In this document: positions 20,845 through 29,773 of the stretch, piece by piece
Numbering within the stretch: the first letter of the stretch is position 1
Layout of the letters: the number at the start of each line of letters is the position of its first letter
Assembly (NCBI RefSeq): GCF_002302635.1
Contig: NZ_CP022387.1
Span: 930,001-994,000 of the forward strand
Source: Capnocytophaga stomatis
GTDB lineage: Bacteria; Bacteroidota; Bacteroidia; Flavobacteriales; Flavobacteriaceae
Direction of reading: 5' to 3'
Length of the DNA stretch: 64,000 bases
Program-made: the position numbers and the translations under genes
Notes under the pieces: model-generated
What the model saw: the letters and a program-made list of their open reading frames with translations, nothing else
Told to the model about the DNA's origin: nothing
Databases searched by the model: none

Positions 20845-20917
20845 GCGAAAATAGCTCAGTTGGTAGAGCGCAACCTTGCCAAGGTTGAGGTCGCGGGTTC
20901 GAACCCCGTTTTTCGCT
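20845..20917 (+). tRNA. tRNA-Gly (anticodon GCC)
   Basis: A 73-base cloverleaf: acceptor GCGAAAA/TTTTCGC, anticodon stem CAACC/GGTTG around TTGCCAA (anticodon GCC at 20878-20880), T arm GCGGG-TTCGAAC-CCCGT, discriminator T. CCA is not encoded. It reads the glycine codons GGC and GGU. Confidence 0.96.
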
Positions 20918-20940
20918 CTTTTTATTGCCTTAATACAGAG

Positions 20941-21026
20941 GCTCGGATGGTGGAATCGGTAGACACGCTGGACTTAAAATCCAGTGGGCAGCAATGCCTG
21001 TGCGGGTTCAAGTCCCGCTCCGAGTA
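20941..21026 (+). tRNA. tRNA-Leu (anticodon TAA)
   Basis: An 86-base class II tRNA with a long variable arm (about 20985-21001). Acceptor GCTCGGA/TCCGAGT has a G-T wobble at the first pair. Anticodon stem CTGGA/TCCAG surrounds CTTAAAA, giving anticodon TAA at 20975-20977. CCA is not encoded. It lies 23 bases after tRNA-Gly, so both are probably one transcript. Confidence 0.95.
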
Positions 21027-21028
21027 CA

Positions 21029-21075
21029 CGAAAAAATCGTAATGCTTTAATATTGAAAGTGTTGCGATTTTTTTA
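21029..21075 (+). terminator. Terminator after the tRNA pair
   Basis: AAAAAATCG(T)AA pairs with TT(G)CGATTTTTT across a roughly 20-base loop, with a T-run, a few bases after tRNA-Leu. Confidence 0.7.
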
Positions 21076-21247: not shown

Positions 21248-21278
21248 TTTGGAGTTTTAATATATTTTATTACTTTTG
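21248..21278 (+). promoter_or_regulatory. Promoter of the ilv operon
   Basis: TTTG (21248-21251), 19 bases, TACTTTTG (21271-21278). Transcription would start near 21285, 14 bases before the leader peptide ATG and about 175 bases before ilvD, leaving room for the attenuator. Confidence 0.85.
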
Positions 21279-21298
21279 TCGCTCGGAAAATTCAAAAA

Positions 21299-21361
21299 AT
21301 GACAAGAATATATTTTTACAGCATTATTAGCCTTATTATTATCATCAATAACACCTATTGA
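21299..21361 (+). CDS. Isoleucine-rich leader peptide of the ilv operon
   Basis: A 20-codon open frame directly after the promoter. It encodes M-T-R-I-Y-F-Y-S-I-I, then S-L-I-I-I-I-N-N-T-Y and stops at TGA. Seven of 20 residues are Ile, with four in a row at codons 13-16 and one Leu. It is followed by a terminator hairpin and a matching antiterminator segment. This is the layout of a leader peptide that makes the ribosome stall when charged tRNA-Ile is scarce. Stalling at codons 13-16 would leave the antiterminator (21358-21372) free; a ribosome reaching the stop codon would cover it. It is too short for normal gene finding. The reading is inferred from sequence alone but is internally consistent. 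Confidence 0.85.
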   Translation: MTRIYFYSIISLIIIINNTY

Positions 21362-21427
21362 TGCGAGGCTTTATATCTGTAAACGAAATAAAAAAACCTG
21401 CATCAACCCAAACTGATGCAGGTTTTT
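21358..21427 (+). promoter_or_regulatory. Transcription attenuator: antiterminator and terminator of the ilv operon
   Basis: The terminator is AAACCTGCATCA (21394-21405) paired with TGATGCAGGTTT (21414-21425), loop of 8, then T's, 35 bases before ilvD. Its left arm can instead pair with TTGATGCGAGGCTTT (21358-21372), which overlaps the leader stop codon: TTGATGC with GCATCAA, AGG with CCT, TTT with AAA, with two single-base bulges. The two structures exclude each other, so a ribosome position on the Ile codons can decide between read-through and termination. Confidence 0.85.
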
Positions 21428-21461
21428 CTTTTTAAAACTGACGAAAAAATTAGGAAATAAA

Positions 21462-23144
21462 ATGGAATTAAACAAATACAGCAAGCAAGTAACACAAGAC
21501 GACACCCAACCCGCCGCACAGGCGATGCTCCACGCTTTGGGACTTACTGACAGCGATTTACAAAAACCTTTGGTGGGCATCGCAAGTACGGGCTATGAAG
21601 GAAATCCCTGCAATATGCACCTCAATGGTTTAGCTTTGAAAATTAAAGAAGGCGTACAAGAATCGGGTTCGGTGGGGCTTATATTTAACACCATAGGCGT
21701 TTCGGACGGAATTTCAATGGGAACCTACGGAATGCGTTATTCGCTTGTGTCTCGCGATATTATTGCCGATTCGGTTGAAACCGTAGTGCAGGCAATGTGC
21801 TACGATGCACTCGTTACGGTGGTGGGCTGCGATAAAAATATGCCTGGGGCTTTGATGGCGATGCTTCGGCTGAATCGCCCTTCGATTTTGGTGTATGGCG
21901 GAACCATCGCTGCGGGTTGCCACAACGGAAAGAAACTCGACGTAGTTTCCGCTTTCGAGGCTTGGGGACAAAAAGTGGCAGGTACAATCGACGAAAAAGA
22001 ATATCGGGAAGTCATTCACAAAGCCTGTCCTGGTGAGGGAGCTTGTGGTGGAATGTACACCGCCAATACAATGGCATCGGCAATTGAAGCCCTCGGAATG
22101 AGTTTGCCGTACAATTCTTCAACACCTGCTTCGGGCGATGCCAAAAAAAACGAATGCCTCAAAGTCGGGAAATATCTCCGTTATTTGCAAGAAAACGACA
22201 TTAAACCCTCCGATATTGTTACCCGAAAATCCATCGAAAACGCCTTTCGTTTGGTGGTGGCTTTGGGTGGCTCTACCAATGCGGTATTACATTTTTTAGC
22301 CATTGCAAAAGCAGCTCAAATTCCGATGACTATTGATGATTTTGCCCAACTGAGCGAAACCACGCCTTTCATTGCCGACCTCAAACCTAGCGGAAAATAC
22401 GTTATGGAAGACCTGCATCACATTGGAGGAATTCCTGCCGTAATGAAATATTTGCTCGAAAAAGGATTATTACACGGTGATTGCCTGACGGTTACAGGAA
22501 AAACCATAGCCGAAAATCTGGCTAATGTTTCACCACTTCCTGAAAATCAAGAAATTATTTTCCCGTTGGAAAAACCAATTAAAGAAACGGGGCATATTCG
22601 TATTCTCTACGGAAATTTAGCCCCCGAAGGAGCGGTGGCGAAAATCACGGGTAAAGAAGGGCTTTCTTTCACAGGCAAAGCCAAAGTTTATGAAGGGGAA
22701 TTTCTGGCTAATGAAGGAATTGCCAAAGGCGAAGTAATCGAAGGAACGGTGGTGGTAATTCGTTACGAAGGACCGAAAGGAGGACCGGGAATGCCCGAAA
22801 TGTTAAAACCGACTTCCGCCATAATGGGAGCAGGTTTGGGCAAAAAAGTGGCACTCATTACCGACGGACGATTTTCGGGCGGTTCACACGGATTTGTGGT
22901 GGGGCATATTTCGCCCGAAGCCCAAAACGGCGGAAATATCGCTTTGGTACAAGACGGCGACCTAATCACCATTGATGCGATAAAAAATACCATTGACGTA
23001 CATCTCACTGAGGAAGAACTCACCCAAAGACGCAAAAATTTCGTGCAAAAACCACTGAAAGAAACCGCCAAACGCGGGGTGCTTTACAAATACGCCCGTA
23101 CGGTGAGTTCTGCCTCGCAAGGGTGTGTAACCGATGAGTTTTAG
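21462..23144 (+). CDS. ilvD: Dihydroxy-acid dehydratase
   Basis: A 560-residue enzyme that removes water from 2,3-dihydroxy acids to give the 2-keto acid precursors of valine and isoleucine, the third step of the pathway. The iron-sulfur cysteines are visible in [15 protein letters not shown] and [17 protein letters not shown]. The C-terminal [19 protein letters not shown] is also typical. Length is standard. It is the first structural gene after the Ile-rich leader and attenuator. The next ilv gene is about 1.4 kb away because three small accessory genes intervene. This gene is visibly richer in G+C than the neighbouring leader DNA. Confidence 0.97.
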
Positions 23145-23198
23145 TTGAAAAGCAAAAATTAAGTTAATGAGTTTAATCAAGAAAAAACGGAAATAAAT

Positions 23199-23638
23199 AT
23201 GCAAAGAATCCAAGAAATTGAGCAGAAAAATGGCTTTGAATTACCTGCTTCGTACAAAAATTATTGGCGGGTTTTGAATTATTTATATTACTGGAAATGA
23301 ACGACCAAGAAATTGATTTACACAACAAAAATCGCCTGACCGAGTCCGTAGGAAAAGGTTTACAAAGCTGGGAATATGTCAAAATTTGGGCAAGTGAAGA
23401 CAAGCGGATACAAAACAATGCCGTACGCCGACACGATATGGACGGAGAAAGTATTGATATAGAGAGGCTTAAAAATAGTTTTATGTTTGCCGATGGTGGC
23501 GATGGTGTTCGCTTATATTTTAATATTCAAGATAATATGTCCGTTTGGGAATATTACACGGACGATGGCAGTGTGGGCAAAATCGTCGATAGCTTTGATG
23601 AAATCGCCCAAAATAGCGAAATTACTGAAAAAGAGTAA
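23199..23638 (+). pseudogene. SMI1/KNR4-like protein, frameshifted
   Basis: An ATG at 23199 opens M-Q-R-I-Q-E-I-E-Q-K-N-G-F-E-L-P-A-S-Y-K-N-Y, a typical SMI1/KNR4 start, then shifts out of frame near 23262 and stops at 23299. A second frame continues from about 23264 to 23638 with A-G-F-E-L-F-I-L-L-E-M-N-D-Q-E-I-D-L, S-W-E-Y-V-K-I-W-A-S-E-D and G-G-D-G-V-R-L-Y-F-N. One missing T in the run TATT-GGCGG would account for both. The restored product would be about 146 residues. SMI1/KNR4 proteins often act as immunity proteins of polymorphic toxins; no toxin lies nearby. A sequencing error is the alternative. Confidence 0.7.
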
Positions 23639-23650
23639 ATTACCAAAAAA

Positions 23651-23839
23651 ATGACCAATAATAACGATATAGAAAATTTTTTGAAAGAAACGCCCGAGGC
23701 GTATGCGGTGTTTCAGACAATGCCCCCTTCGCACCGAAATGAGTATATCAAATGGATAAACGAAGCTAAAAAGCAGGAAACCAAAGAAAAACGCTTACAA
23801 AAAATGCTCGAAATGTTGTTGAAAAAAGGCAATAAGTGA
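23651..23839 (+). CDS. Small YdeI/OmpD-associated-type protein
   Basis: A 62-residue protein. The pattern P-S-H-R-N-E-Y-I-K-W-I-N-E-A-K-K-Q-E-T-K, followed by R-L-Q-K-M-L-E-M-L, is the C-terminal helical signature of the YdeI/OmpD-associated (OmdA) family. Family members are usually longer, so this is a short stand-alone version or a remnant. A role in protection from bacteriocins or peptides has been suggested for the family, but nothing here shows it. Its stop overlaps the GTG of the next frame, although the next gene probably starts later. It lies between ilvD and ilvB in the same direction. Confidence 0.6.
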   Translation: MTNNNDIENFLKETPEAYAVFQTMPPSHRNEYIKWINEAKKQETKEKRLQKMLEMLLKKGNK

Positions 23840-23877
23840 AGAAAAAAGGTTTATTACGTTTCAACGTGAAATTTAAT

Positions 23878-24279
23878 ATGATGAAAGAAAACTATTTGTA
23901 TAAGAGGGACTATATTGCTGAAATAAAAAATATTCTATCACAGGCGAGGCAACGGGCTTATGCGGCTATCAATTCGGCAATGGTGGAAGCCTATTGGCAA
24001 ATTGGCAGACGAATTGTGGAAGAAGAACAAAATGGTGAAAATCGAGCCAAATACGGAAAGGAAGTTTTGCAGAATTTGTCCGCAGAATTGACAAACGAAT
24101 TTGGAAAAGGATATAGTTACAGAACTTTGAGAGAAATACGTCAATTTTATTTGACTTTTCCCGAAATAGAGAAATGGCGAACACTGTTCGCCAAATTGAG
24201 TTGGTCTCATTTTCAGCGAGTTCTAAAAGTTTCTAACGAAAAAGCACCACCCGAAGAAGAATTAATCAGAGAAATATAA
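23878..24279 (+). pseudogene. DUF1016/YhcG-like protein lacking its nuclease domain
   Basis: A 133-residue product starting at ATG 23878 (or 23881); the open frame extends back to a GTG at 23836. It is a good match to the DUF1016 N-terminal domain: A-R-Q-R-A-Y-A-A-I-N-S-A-M-V-E-A-Y-W-Q-I-G-R, then L-S-A-E-L, Y-S-Y-R-T-L-R-E-I-R-Q-F-Y and L-S-W-S-H-F-Q-R-V-L-K-V-S-N-E. Full proteins are about 340-360 residues and carry a C-terminal PDDEXK nuclease. Here, right after S-N-E-K, the chain ends A-P-P-E-E-E-L-I-R-E-I. That tail resembles the last residues of full-length members, which suggests an in-frame internal deletion of the nuclease. It may be expressed, but nuclease activity is not possible. 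Confidence 0.65.
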
Positions 24280-24565
24280 CTAACCCACATTAAATTGTCG
24301 TTCTTTTCAAGAGTGAGCTAACGACCTTGGAGACGAAGCGTTAAGAAAATCAATGAATGTAGCGTAGAAAATATCCATTGTTTGAGCGAAGCGAGTTTGG
24401 AGATTTTCAGCGGAATGAATTGATTTTTAGTGCAGTATCCAAAGTCTTGAATTTTTGGTTCTTTTGTTTCAAGACAAAAGAACAGAAAAAAGACAAATTA
24501 TATAGAATTGGCTATAACACAACAGAAAAACGCAAAATAGAATCAGAATCAAAACATAAAATAAG
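24280..24565. repeat. Repeat-like intergenic stretch before ilvB
   Basis: A 286-base gap without a convincing gene. It holds a hairpin GTTCTTTTG / CAAAAGAAC with an 8-base loop (about 24460-24485) and the strings GAAAATCAATGAATG and GAGCGAAGCGAG, which look like dispersed flavobacterial repeats. A 63-codon frame across it (F-W-F-F-C-F-K-T-K-E-Q-K-K) is of the type that such repeats produce and is not taken as a gene. I see no promoter for ilvB in it. Confidence 0.45.
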
Positions 24566-26248
24566 ATGACAGGAGCAGAAGTTTTAATCAAAAGTTTATT
24601 AGCCGAAGGCGTAGATTTGGCTTTCGGATACCCAGGCGGAGCCATAATGCCCGTTTACGACGAACTTTACAAATACCAAAATCAGTTGAAGCATATCCTC
24701 ACTCGCCACGAGCAGGGAGCTATTCACGCAGCTCAAGGTTACGCTCGTGCTACGAGAAGGGTCGGGGTGGTTTTCGCAACTTCCGGACCAGGGGCTACCA
24801 ACATCATCACCGGAATTGCCGATGCTCAAATCGATTCCACTCCGTTAGTGTGCATTACCGGACAGGTAGCCAAGCACTTATTAGGAACAGATGCCTTCCA
24901 AGAAACGGACATCATCGGGATTTCAACGCCCGTAACCAAGTGGAATTACCAAATCACCGAAGCCGATGAAATTACCGAAGTCATCGCTAAAGCCTTCTAC
25001 ATTGCTCGCTCAGGAAGACCCGGACCAGTACTTATCGACATCGTGAAAAGTGCTCAATTTGACCAAGTTGCTCATTTCAACTATAAAAAATGTAACGGCA
25101 TAAGAAGTTACAAACCTGTTCCTGAAATTGACCAAACTAAAATTGAAGAAGCAGCACAAATCATCAATAATGCACAAAAACCATACGTGATTTTCGGGCA
25201 AGGAATTGTTCTGGCAGAGGCTGAAAATGAACTGAAAACCTTTTTGGAAAAGGCAGATATTCCAGCAGCAGCCACTATTCTTGGGCTTTCCGCCTTACCT
25301 ACAAGTCATCCGAATTACGTTGGGATGGTGGGAATGCACGGCAATTATGCCCCAAATGTGCTTACCAATCAATGTGATGTGCTTATCGCTCTCGGAATGC
25401 GTTTTGACGACCGCGTTACGGGGGATTTAAGCAGATACGCCAAGCAAGCCAAAATCATACATTTTGATATCGACCCTGCCGAAATAGACAAAAACGTAAA
25501 AACCGATGTTGCCGTTCTGGCGGACGTAAAAGAAGCCTTGCAAAAAATAATTCCTTTGATTGAGAAGAAGCAACATACACATTGGCGAGATGCGTTCAAA
25601 CAGTACGATAAAGATGAATATAAGATAGTTATCAAAAACGAGCTATATCCCGAAAAAGTCGGGATGACTATGGGCGAAGTGCTCGAATTGATAAACAAAC
25701 ATTCGGGAGAGGAAGCTGTAATCGTTTCGGATGTAGGGCAACATCAAATGATTGCTTGTCGTTATGGTAAGTTCAAACAAACACGCAGTAAAATCACTTC
25801 GGGCGGATTGGGAACGATGGGATTCGGGCTTCCGGCAGCTATCGGGGCAAAACTTGGAGTTCCTCAAAAACAAGTAGTTGCAATCATCGGTGATGGCGGT
25901 TTTCAGATGACCATTCAGGAATTAGGGACGATATTCCAATCGCAAATTCCTGTGAAAATCGTAGTACTTAATAACGAATTTTTAGGAATGGTACGCCAAT
26001 GGCAAGAATTATTTTTTGACCGCCGATATGCTTCTACCGAAATGACAAATCCTGATTTTATCAAAATTGCCGAAGGATATCATATCAAATCCAAATTAGT
26101 AACCCAACGCACTGATTTAGAGGAATCCATTAAAGAAATGCTCGCCTGCGACAAGGCTTACTTTTTGGAAGTTCGTGTCGAAAAAGAAAATAACGTATTC
26201 CCGATGGTGCCTACGGGAGCTTCGGTTTCGGAAGTGCGATTGAAATAA
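24566..26248 (+). CDS. ilvB: Acetolactate synthase, large (catalytic) subunit
   Basis: A 560-residue thiamine-diphosphate enzyme that condenses pyruvate with pyruvate or 2-oxobutyrate, the first shared step of valine and isoleucine synthesis. The catalytic glutamate lies in L-T-R-H-E-Q-G-A-I-H-A-A-Q-G-Y-A-R; the substrate loop A-T-S-G-P-G-A-T-N follows. The ThDP/Mg motif G-D-G-G-F-Q-M-T then L-N-N-E-F-L-G-M-V-R-Q-W-Q is near residue 450-480. Length is standard. The regulatory subunit gene is downstream but separated by 224 bases containing a perfect palindrome, unusual because the two subunit genes are normally adjacent. No own promoter is seen, so transcription from the ilv promoter is likely. 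Confidence 0.97.
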   Translation: MTGAEVLIKSLLAEGVDLAFGYPGGAIMPVYDELYKYQNQLKHILTRHEQGAIHAAQGYARATRRVGVVFATSGPGATNIITGIADAQIDSTPLVCITGQVAKHLLGTDAFQETDIIGISTPVTKWNYQITEADEITEVIAKAFYIARSGRPGPVLIDIVKSAQFDQVAHFNYKKCNGIRSYKPVPEIDQTKIEEAAQIINNAQKPYVIFGQGIVLAEAENELKTFLEKADIPAAATILGLSALPTSHPNYVGMVGMHGNYAPNVLTNQCDVLIALGMRFDDRVTGDLSRYAKQAKIIHFDIDPAEIDKNVKTDVAVLADVKEALQKIIPLIEKKQHTHWRDAFKQYDKDEYKIVIKNELYPEKVGMTMGEVLELINKHSGEEAVIVSDVGQHQMIACRYGKFKQTRSKITSGGLGTMGFGLPAAIGAKLGVPQKQVVAIIGDGGFQMTIQELGTIFQSQIPVKIVVLNNEFLGMVRQWQELFFDRRYASTEMTNPDFIKIAEGYHIKSKLVTQRTDLEESIKEMLACDKAYFLEVRVEKENNVFPMVPTGASVSEVRLK

Positions 26249-26472: not shown

Positions 26473-27009
26473 ATGGAAAATAAAACATACACCATCACCA
26501 TATATTCGGAAAATCAGCTTGGGCTACTCAACAGAGTAACGGGGATTTTCCTCAGAAGACACATCGATATGGAAAGCATCAACGTATCAAAGTCCGAAAT
26601 CGAGAATGTTTTCCGAATGATAATCGTTACTCACACCACACAAAAATGGGTGGAACACATTGTAAAACAGATTGAAAAGCAAATCGAAATCATAAAAGTA
26701 TTTTACCATACTGATGAAGAAATCGTCTTTTTGGAAAACTCACTTTTCAAGATGCCCGCAACTTCGCTTTTTGATGAAGAAACCCCCGTACAAGCTATCA
26801 TTCAACGGAATAACGCAACCATAGCGACGGTTTACAGGGATTTTTACGTAATCTCAAAAACAGGCACACGCGAAAGCATCGAGCAACTTTACAAGGAACT
26901 CAAACCCTACGGCATAATGCAATTTTCGGGTTCGGCACGGATTGCTGTTTCCAAAACGGAAATGAAAGTATCTTCCTTACTTGATAAATATGAGACAGAT
27001 AGCCAATAA
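26473..27009 (+). CDS. ilvN: Acetolactate synthase, small (regulatory) subunit
   Basis: A 178-residue protein that activates the catalytic subunit and makes it sensitive to valine. The N-terminal ACT domain is clear: Y-T-I-T-I-Y-S-E-N-Q-L-G-L-L-N-R-V-T-G-I-F-L-R-R-H-I-D-M-E-S-I-N-V-S. The C-terminal domain (about 85-178) contains V-Y-R-D-F-Y-V-I-S-K-T-G and ends with a G-I-M-Q-F-S-G-S-A-R-I-A-V motif typical of ALS small subunits. It is followed by ilvC after 30 bases. The start ATG at 26473 has an A-rich leader. Confidence 0.94.
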   Translation: MENKTYTITIYSENQLGLLNRVTGIFLRRHIDMESINVSKSEIENVFRMIIVTHTTQKWVEHIVKQIEKQIEIIKVFYHTDEEIVFLENSLFKMPATSLFDEETPVQAIIQRNNATIATVYRDFYVISKTGTRESIEQLYKELKPYGIMQFSGSARIAVSKTEMKVSSLLDKYETDSQ

Positions 27010-27039: not shown

Positions 27040-28509
27040 ATGAAAAATTATTTTAACACATTGAATTTCAGAGATAAATTAGCTCAATTGGGCGTTTGCG
27101 AACTATTGCAAAAAAGTGATTTCAGTCAAGGGGTTGAAGCACTTAAAGGAAAGAAAATTGTCATCGTGGGGGCAGGAGCTCAGGGATTGAATCAAGGGCT
27201 GAATATGCGTGATTCAGGTTTGGATGTTTCCTATGCTTTGCGTGAGTGTGCCATTGCCGAAAAACGCCCTTCGTACACCAATACAACAGCCAACGGCTTT
27301 AAGGTAGGAACCTTTGAGGAGCTTATCCCAAAGGCGGATTTGGTCTGTAATTTAACACCCGACAAACAGCATACTTCCGTGATTAACAACATTATGCCTT
27401 TGATGAAAGAGGGTGCGACACTCTCGTACTCGCACGGCTTCAACATTGTGGAAGAAGGAATGCAAATACGTAAAGATATTACGGTGATTATGGTCGCTCC
27501 CAAATCGCCTGGCTCAGAAGTGCGTGAGGAGTACAAACGCGGATTCGGTGTGCCTACTTTGATTGCTGTACACCCCGAAAACGACCCCGAAGGCAAGGGC
27601 TTTGAGTGGGCAAAGGCGTATGCCGCAGCTTTGGGAAGCCATACGGCAGGGGTGTTGCGTTCTTCTTTTGTAGCCGAAGTAAAATCGGATTTGATGGGCG
27701 AACAAACGATGCTCTGCGGCTTGCTTCAAACGGGTTCTATACTGGCTTTCAACAAGATGAAACGAGAAGGAATCGCCCCCGAGTACGCTTCAAAACTGAT
27801 TCAGTATGGCTGGGAGACCATTACCGAAGCCCTAAAACACGGCGGAATTACCCATATGATGAATCGCCTATCAAATCCTGCCAAAGTGAGAGCCTTTACC
27901 ATTTCCGAAGATTTAAAAAAGAAAATGCGTCCACTTTTTGAAAAACATATGGACGACATTTTGAGCGGTCATTTTTCAAAAACAATGATGGAAGATTGGA
28001 CAAATGACGATAAAAATCTACTTGCGTGGCGGGTGGCTACGGCACAAACGGACTTTGAAAAAACACCCGCTACCCAAGAAACCATCTCCGAACAAACCTA
28101 TTTCGACCACGCAACGCTTCTGGTTGCCATCGTAAAGGCGGGAGTGGAATTGGCTTTTGAGGTAATGACCGAATCGGGAATGAAGGAAGAGTCGGCTTAC
28201 TACGAATCGCTTCACGAATTGCCACTTATAGCCAATACCGTTGCTCGAAAAAAATTGTACGAAATGAACAAAACCATTTCCGATACCGCCGAATACGGAA
28301 ACTATCTGTTTGATAATGCGTGTCGTCCATTGCTTTCTGATTATATCAATGCGTTGGAAAAAGAAATCCTTGGGCGTGATTTTTCAACATCCAATCAGGT
28401 CGATAATTTGCAACTGATAGCCGTAAACAAAGCCATACAAAATCACCCGATAGAAAAAATAGGAAACACCCTACGAACCTATATGACCGATATGAAACGT
28501 ATAAAATAA
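27040..28509 (+). CDS. ilvC: Ketol-acid reductoisomerase, class II (long form)
   Basis: A 489-residue enzyme that isomerises and reduces acetolactate or acetohydroxybutyrate with NAD(P)H, the second shared step. The length marks it as the class II form with a duplicated knotted C-terminal domain, as in E. coli, rather than the 330-residue class I. The Rossmann motif is [11 protein letters not shown]; the cofactor loop [11 protein letters not shown] carries the charged residues usual for NADPH use. Catalytic acid clusters lie in [12 protein letters not shown]. It begins 30 bases after ilvN and ends one base before ilvA, so all are co-transcribed. Confidence 0.96.
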
Positions 28510-28510
28510 T

Positions 28511-29773
28511 ATGGAAACAAAAACGACATACATACCACAAGTTCAGGAAGTTCAGAAAGCAATGTTGCGGATAAAATCGGTAATAACTACCACTCCGCTT
28601 TCGCAAAGCATTCGGCTCGGAAAGTTATTCGGAGCTGAGGTTTTTCTTAAAAGAGAAGATTTGCAACAGGTACGCTCCTACAAAATACGGGGAGCTTACA
28701 ACAAAATCAGTTCACTTTCGGAAGAAGATAAACGGAAAGGAATCGTCTGTGCAAGTGCTGGAAATCACGCCCAAGGAGTGGCTCTTTCCTGCCGAATGTT
28801 GGGGATTAAAGGCGATATTTATATGCCCGTAACCACGCCTCAGCAAAAGATAGAACAAGTGCAAATGTTTGGAGAAGAAAATGTTAATATCATTCTGCAA
28901 GGCGATACTTTTGACGACTCGAACTATGCCGCAATACAATTTGCCCAAGAAAACGAAAAAACGTTCGTACCGCCCTTTGATGATGAAAAAGTTATTGAAG
29001 GACAGGCAACTATCGGGCTGGAAATATTAGACCAAGCTCAAAGCCCAATAGATTACGTGTTTGTGCCTATCGGTGGAGGCGGACTTTCGGCGGGGCTTTC
29101 GGCAATATTCAAAATGCTTTCACCACAAACAAAAATCATCGGGGTTGAGCCTTTGGGAGCTCCTTCAATGCAAGAAGCCCTAAAAGCAGGAAAACCTGTG
29201 GAACTCACTGAAATTGACAAATTTGTAGATGGTGCATCGGTTAAAAAGGTGGGAGATTTGAATTTTGAAATTTGCCGACAATTTCTGGACGACATCGTGC
29301 TGGTACCCGAAGGCAAAGTATGCCAAACCATTTTGGATTTGTACAACCGCGATGCCATTGTGGTAGAACCTGCGGGAGCGTTGGCTATTTCGGCTTTGGA
29401 TTTCTACAAAGAAAAAATTAAAGGTAAAAATGTGGTTTGTGTTATCAGCGGAAGCAATAACGACATCACCCGAACGGCAGAAATTAAAGAACGTGCCCTG
29501 CTTTACGCCAATTTGAAGCATTATTTTATCGTGCGTTTCCCACAACGTGCCGGAGCTCTGAAAGAATTTGTGGCGGAAATACTCGGTAAAACTGACGATA
29601 TTACTTATTTTGAATATTCCAAAAAGCATAATCGTGAAAATGGTCCTGCCGTGGTAGGTATCGAACTAAAACACGAATCTGATTTACAACCTCTTATCGA
29701 CCGAATGAAAAAACACAATTTCTACGGCGATTACCTCAACAACAAACCCGATTTGTTCCAATTTTTGGTGTGA
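28511..29773 (+). CDS. ilvA: Threonine dehydratase (biosynthetic type)
   Basis: A 420-residue PLP enzyme that deaminates threonine to 2-oxobutyrate, the first step specific to isoleucine. The PLP lysine is in Q-V-R-S-Y-K-I-R-G-A-Y-N-K; the phosphate-binding glycine loop is I-G-G-G-G-L-S-A-G; S-G-S-N-N-D is also present. The C-terminal part (from about residue 335, H-Y-F-I-V-R-F-P-Q-R-A-G-A-L-K-E-F) is a single ACT-like domain, so length and layout match the shorter biosynthetic form (about 420) rather than the 514-residue double-ACT enzyme. It is separated from ilvC by a single base and is the last gene of the operon, followed by a terminator. Confidence 0.95.
   Translation: METKTTYIPQVQEVQKAMLRIKSVITTTPLSQSIRLGKLFGAEVFLKREDLQQVRSYKIRGAYNKISSLSEEDKRKGIVCASAGNHAQGVALSCRMLGIKGDIYMPVTTPQQKIEQVQMFGEENVNIILQGDTFDDSNYAAIQFAQENEKTFVPPFDDEKVIEGQATIGLEILDQAQSPIDYVFVPIGGGGLSAGLSAIFKMLSPQTKIIGVEPLGAPSMQEALKAGKPVELTEIDKFVDGASVKKVGDLNFEICRQFLDDIVLVPEGKVCQTILDLYNRDAIVVEPAGALAISALDFYKEKIKGKNVVCVISGSNNDITRTAEIKERALLYANLKHYFIVRFPQRAGALKEFVAEILGKTDDITYFEYSKKHNRENGPAVVGIELKHESDLQPLIDRMKKHNFYGDYLNNKPDLFQFLV

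Follow-up and report, generated by a model that had tools for sequence, protein, structure and literature searches.

The ilvD locus of Capnocytophaga stomatis

The window analysed here, a stretch of 64,000 nucleotides from Capnocytophaga stomatis (contig NZ_CP022387.1), contains a cluster of genes for branched-chain amino acid biosynthesis with ilvD as the first gene of the unit. Between this gene and a pair of tRNA genes lie a promoter, a short reading frame and a set of overlapping inverted repeats. The features are as follows.

20845-21074, tRNA-Gly (GCC) and tRNA-Leu (UAA, 20941-21027) genes followed by a terminator of their own, immediately ahead of the promoter of the putative attenuator
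21030..21074, + strand, separate terminator hairpin behind tRNA-Leu, closing the tRNA transcript (-17.9 kcal/mol, T-run; also at L002 and L006)
21248-21251 (TTTG) and 21271-21278 (TACTTTTG), + strand, Bacteroidota-type promoter TTTG-N19-TACTTTTG, recognised from the sequence and from seven congeneric genomes
21299..21361, + strand, leader peptide frame MTRIYFYSIISLIIIINNTY and stop, 20 codons; C-terminal part conserved in L002-L007
21329..21370, + strand, predicted protector hairpin 1:2 (21329-21334:21365-21370 and 21343-21350:21356-21363), -11.9 kcal/mol on folding
21335..21346, + strand, putative control codons Ile13-Ile16 (ATT ATT ATC ATC), read from the sequence
21358..21368, + strand, segment 2, 5' strand of the predicted antiterminator, pairing with 21397-21406 and holding the UGA stop (21359-21361)
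21392..21434, + strand, intrinsic terminator 3:4 (21392-21405:21414-21427) and U-tract, -19.6 kcal/mol on folding
21462..23144, + strand, ilvD, dihydroxy-acid dehydratase (NCBIfam TIGR00110, 743.9 bits, over cut-off)
24566..26248, + strand, ilvB, acetolactate synthase large subunit (TIGR00118, over cut-off)
26473..27009, + strand, ilvN, acetolactate synthase small subunit (TIGR00119, over cut-off)
27040..28509, + strand, ilvC, ketol-acid reductoisomerase (PRK05225 and TIGR00465, over cut-off)
28511..29773, + strand, ilvA, threonine ammonia-lyase (TIGR02079, over cut-off)

Seven of the 20 leader codons specify isoleucine, four of them in succession at codons 13-16, and the peptide has one Leu and no Val. 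The intrinsic terminator sits between the leader and the first structural gene, and the stretch reaching from leader to U-tract is far more stable than dinucleotide shuffles of it (z = -7.6; 0/200 shuffles equally stable). An earlier note on this DNA had claimed the promoter, the 20-codon leader with its seven Ile (four in a row), the terminator with its T-run, and a segment overlapping the leader stop that can pair with the left arm of the terminator; re-reading and folding located all of these where it had placed them, the last as 21358-21364 plus 21366-21368 with 21397-21406.

Downstream of the leader lies a cognate biosynthetic operon (ilvD, ilvB, ilvN, ilvC, ilvA). The gap between ilvD and ilvB (23145-24565) appears insertion-prone: it holds one ORF without family assignment, an ORF of the OmdA family (PF13376) and a truncated DUF1016_N ORF, is shorter than 200 bp in G002, G003 and G018, and contains at least one of the window's gap genes in G006 and G017. 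Since these small unrelated genes separate ilvD from ilvB, control of ilvBNCA, which would proceed by read-through, is less certain than that of ilvD. The genes leuA (TIGR00973) and hisG (TIGR00070) are absent from the organism's genome (G000), which suggests leucine and histidine auxotrophy with isoleucine/valine synthesis kept. With leuA missing, isoleucine and valine are the products of the pathway, and it is ilvA that directs it towards isoleucine; we infer that the operon content suits an isoleucine rather than a valine signal. Searches at the organism's own loci for a class-IV aminotransferase (ilvE candidate), aspartate kinase and chorismate enzymes revealed no leader in which the expected amino acid forms a clear run.

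Mutually exclusive helices in the leader transcript

The transcript can be folded into four mutually exclusive segments in the classical order, with predicted energies of -11.9 (1:2), -11.4 (2:3) and -19.6 kcal/mol (3:4). The outer helix of 1:2 is formed by AGCCTT (21329-21334) with GAGGCT (21365-21370), including one T-G pair, and the inner helix by CATCAATA (21343-21350) with TATTGATG (21356-21363). The parts list of the earlier note, which named an antiterminator and a terminator, was therefore right about both of these elements but incomplete, as it lacked the protector hairpin of the full 1:2/2:3/3:4 set. The 3' strand of this hairpin is at the same time the antiterminator strand, and with the protector, judged from the sequence, the element has all four segments (1-2-3-4) of a classical trp-type attenuator. 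The antiterminator excludes the terminator, and because its strand contains the stop codon it would be open only to a stalled ribosome.

The terminator exceeds the antiterminator in stability by 8 kcal/mol, and equilibrium folding with the region of a stalled ribosome masked still yields the terminator. As 3:4 is the more stable end state, switching must be kinetic and decided during transcription, as in trp. We take the result of the masked folding as a sign of kinetic control; as an equilibrium calculation it cannot demonstrate switching.

Conservation within the genus

Twenty congeneric genomes were searched, seven of which contain ilvD. The leader is present in all seven and in 0/13 genomes without ilvD. 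The peptide's C-terminal part (IISLIIIINNTY and variants) is kept in the seven genomes, as are the hairpins and the core of the terminator; the N-terminal half of the peptide and the sequence further downstream drift. Differences in leader length are multiples of three, one genome being short of one Ile codon. A promoter precedes the leader in 7/7 genomes (TTG-N19/20-TAnnTTTG, one TTTG reading GTTG).

The helices are maintained through sequence changes as well. In L004 one base pair is altered in step across three strands (segment 2, GATGC to GATGT; segment 3, GCATC to ACATC; segment 4, GATGC to GATGT), so that both 2:3 and 3:4 are kept. In the inner helix of 1:2, L007 has C-G instead of U-A and two G-U instead of A-U pairs, and its outer helix has AACG:CGTT in place of AGCC:GGCT, with the pairing slipped by one base; L005 has U-A for one A-U pair. 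Taken over the seven genomes, three pairs of 1:2 and 3:4 are altered on both sides, against a mean of 0.4 for shuffled alignments (2/500), and 93.8% of the cells are paired, compared to 31-47% when the strands are slid against each other. The 1:2 inner helix is 100% paired, the 1:2 hairpin containing two compensatory pairs. For 2:3, 98.6% of the cells are paired in the seven genomes (20-43% when slid); this helix is nearly invariant and its covariation, taken alone, is weak, with one site and no distinction from shuffling (147/500). The comparative check that the earlier note had proposed was thus passed: the short frame, the helices and the promoter recur in all ilvD-bearing congeners, and compensatory changes are seen in helices 1:2 and 3:4, one of which is common to strands 2, 3 and 4.

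Distribution beyond the genus

Regions upstream of ilvD were gathered from 80 named genomes, to which 29 further genera of the family were added. They were searched with a detector for a leader of 8-40 codons with at least five of eight codons for Ile, Val or Leu, a terminator 15-45 nt past the stop, and a complementary segment. The detector matched 49 of 114 distinct regions (43%; nearly all from Bacteroidota), compared to 1/456 dinucleotide shuffles (0.2%) and 1/114 reverse complements. When amino acids were counted singly, Ile-rich leaders were found in 35/114 regions and Val-rich ones in nine, Lys and Leu giving three each and the rest 0-2 (shuffles, 0-1/456). A first control set consisting of other stretches of the same loci gave 20/247 matches. 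These are leader and terminator modules 1-1.5 kb upstream, located at the loci checked ahead of an ilvE gene preceding ilvD; being further modules, they make this set invalid as a negative control.

In an extended set (2.5 kb upstream, 60 more genera, 172 regions, four evident false matches removed), a module was present in 104 regions and two modules in 23. They occur in Flavobacteriaceae, Weeksellaceae, Chitinophagaceae, Saprospiraceae, Sphingobacteriaceae, Cytophagales and one Ignavibacteriota contig. Two further loci are titled Thalassovita (L048) and Candidatus Planktophila (L060); their IlvD groups with Bacteroidota and their leaders are of the same type, and they are probably misbinned Bacteroidota contigs. 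The spacing between leader stop and terminator arm varies little (median 29, quartiles 26-32). The antiterminator, which had not been selected for here, is better than 95% of shuffles in 81/133 modules, and in those 81 the median start of its 5' strand lies 4 nt upstream of the stop codon's end. A hairpin over this strand is predicted in 112/133 modules. The picture of an isolated compact case drawn by the earlier note did not hold, as the element belongs to a widespread class with similar modules recurring across Bacteroidota; its description of the leader as Ile-only applies to this strain (one Leu, no Val) but not to the relatives, which use Ile plus Val.

Two types of modules and their tandem arrangement

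Most terminators in Flavobacteriaceae are either of type A (arm CCTTCC) or of type B (arm CCTGTATCA), with the leader consensus MKKQIINIISIIIIVIISQ for type A and MKRNKNIISVIIIIPSRG for type B. Type B modules, the window's included, have the core TGAT(A/G)C(A/G)G...CCTG(T/C)ATCA...TGAT(A/G)CAGG, its first copy containing the stop codon. The stop TGA forms the start of the antiterminator strand TGATACAG, so the end of translation is tied to the loss of the antiterminator. The arm of the window element, CCTGCATCA, is of type B, and the element fits the definition of that type, its left arm being CCTG(T/C)ATC and the matching antiterminator containing the leader stop; it is a lone type B module, as in its genus.

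Where both types are present, A precedes B in 16/16 Flavobacteriaceae genomes; A alone is found in 26 and B alone in 31. The A-then-B loci, upstream of ilvD or ilvE, are L009, L027, L032, L096, L097, L098, L103, L110, L128, L145, L149, L160, L165, L171, L173 and L177, and seven further loci (L028, L033, L039, L056, L061, L074, L086) have two modules with other arm types. In A-B tandems the second leader mostly follows the first terminator at a distance of 0-30 nt, and nothing resembling a promoter was detected between the two modules. Many relatives differ from the window and its genus in having an A module ahead of B. In the IlvD tree the genus stands among B and AB genomes (14 rows, SH-aLRT 92), which is consistent with a loss of type A in the genus as one possible direction of change. 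We give slightly better than even odds to a general scheme in which branched-chain amino acid operons of Bacteroidota are governed by a home-grown class of leader-peptide attenuators, often in series (A before B in Flavobacteriaceae) without recognisable promoter between them; such pairs would impose two independent ribosome checks, of which the window's genus would keep only the second.

Other explanations for the conserved leader

In other phyla ilv genes are under the control of T-boxes and a ppGpp riboswitch, and the terminator might likewise be controlled by a ligand riboswitch, a T-box or a protein-bound leader, translation of the short frame being incidental. The ppGpp riboswitch and ilvB are mentioned in PMC10272879. 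We consider this very improbable for the locus studied here. An Rfam scan of the window returned only tRNA and SRP matches and no T-box, ppGpp riboswitch or other cis-regulator, and there were zero matches at the element or at the equivalent places of 15 related loci. Furthermore, what is conserved is the coding run, its hairpin and the antiterminator/terminator rather than a long structured aptamer, and the leader varies as a coding sequence would: its indels come in threes, and in the I/V columns of type B leaders the second codon position is held (differences at positions 1/2/3 of 0.52/0.15/0.59), a pattern that is expected under selection for Ile/Val.

A little less probable still is that the hairpin simply terminates transcription, for instance from the tRNA genes upstream, and that the short frame represents a chance Ile run. 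The region is AT-rich, as are the Ile codons, and the tRNA-Gly/tRNA-Leu pair lies just upstream. However, the tRNA transcript is closed by the separate terminator at 21030-21074, the leader is preceded by a promoter in all ilvD-bearing congeners, a pattern of this kind arises in hardly any of the shuffled regions, and the compensatory changes preserve the alternative helices.

Least probable of all is an action of the leader mainly through ribosome reinitiation aiding ilvD translation or through its peptide in trans: leader genes near a start codon can feed reinitiation (PMC4833913) and in Sinorhizobium a peptide from the trp leader works in trans (PMC7298713), but here the stop codon is 100 nt away from ilvD with a strong terminator in between, compared to a reinitiation peak of 11-14 nt in Bacteroidetes (PMC4833913), and the lack of conservation in the N-terminal half argues against a trans-acting peptide.

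A model of attenuation at ilvD

We favour, with a probability of roughly 0.9, a trp-type ribosome-mediated attenuator with charged tRNA-Ile as its signal and with ilvD and, through read-through, ilvBNCA as its targets. Conservation in the genus and the recurring modules across Bacteroidota support the reading as ribosome-controlled attenuation; we infer the link to isoleucine from the leader codons and the operon content. Transcription would start a few bases past 21278, and a ribosome would load on the leader at 21299. If charged tRNA-Ile is short, it would stall within codons 13-16 and mask the 5' strand of 1:2; segment 2 (21358-21368) could then pair with the emerging left arm of the terminator, and the polymerase would read on, possibly as far as ilvA. 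If isoleucine is plentiful, the ribosome would reach the stop codon inside segment 2, the antiterminator would be blocked, and transcription would end at 21392-21427. Without translation 1:2 and 3:4 would form, termination thus being the default.

Leader-peptide attenuators of the trp, his, thr, leu and ilv operons are known from Enterobacteria, e.g. ilvGMEDA and ilvBN. The window element is likened to them by its layout, that is, a leader with control codons, a 1:2 protector, a 2:3 antiterminator over the leader stop, a 3:4 terminator with U-tract, and a position ahead of the cognate biosynthetic operon. It differs in responding, as predicted from its codons, to isoleucine only (in this strain), in its shorter leader, in the stop codon inside the antiterminator strand and in the Bacteroidota promoter. 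The ilvB leaders of Corynebacterium, Mycobacterium and Streptomyces (PMC1262725; ilvB-II motif, PMC10272879) likewise consist of a uORF rich in branched-chain amino acid codons and a terminator before an ilv operon. In those leaders, however, the ORF and the terminator hairpin overlap, or the ORF extends across P1, whereas here the terminator lies ~30 nt past the leader and there is an explicit antiterminator; for the Streptomyces ilvB leader the exact mode is disputed (PMC1262725).

The mechanism itself is well supported by comparative sequence evidence as classical ribosome-mediated attenuation, a known kind as in E. coli; less expected are its phylum-wide spread and the tandem pairs in relatives. 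We found neither Bacteroidota ilv attenuators nor tandem leader-peptide attenuators in the open literature, where a phylum-wide set with ordered tandem pairs appears to be little documented; a 2010 comparative paper may list Bacteroidota cases. That study of attenuation across bacteria, by Lopatovskaya et al. and cited in PMC10272879 and PMC4833913, reportedly covers Bacteroidetes/Chlorobi among other groups.

Textbook attenuation is thus indicated, on strong comparative evidence, in a phylum in which leader-peptide regulation is almost undocumented in open papers, and the window element offers a compact, testable example of it. The attenuator class would account for many unannotated short frames and terminators ahead of ilvE and ilvD, and the tandem pairs pose the question of what is gained by attenuators in series, a multiplied range of control or a sharper response.
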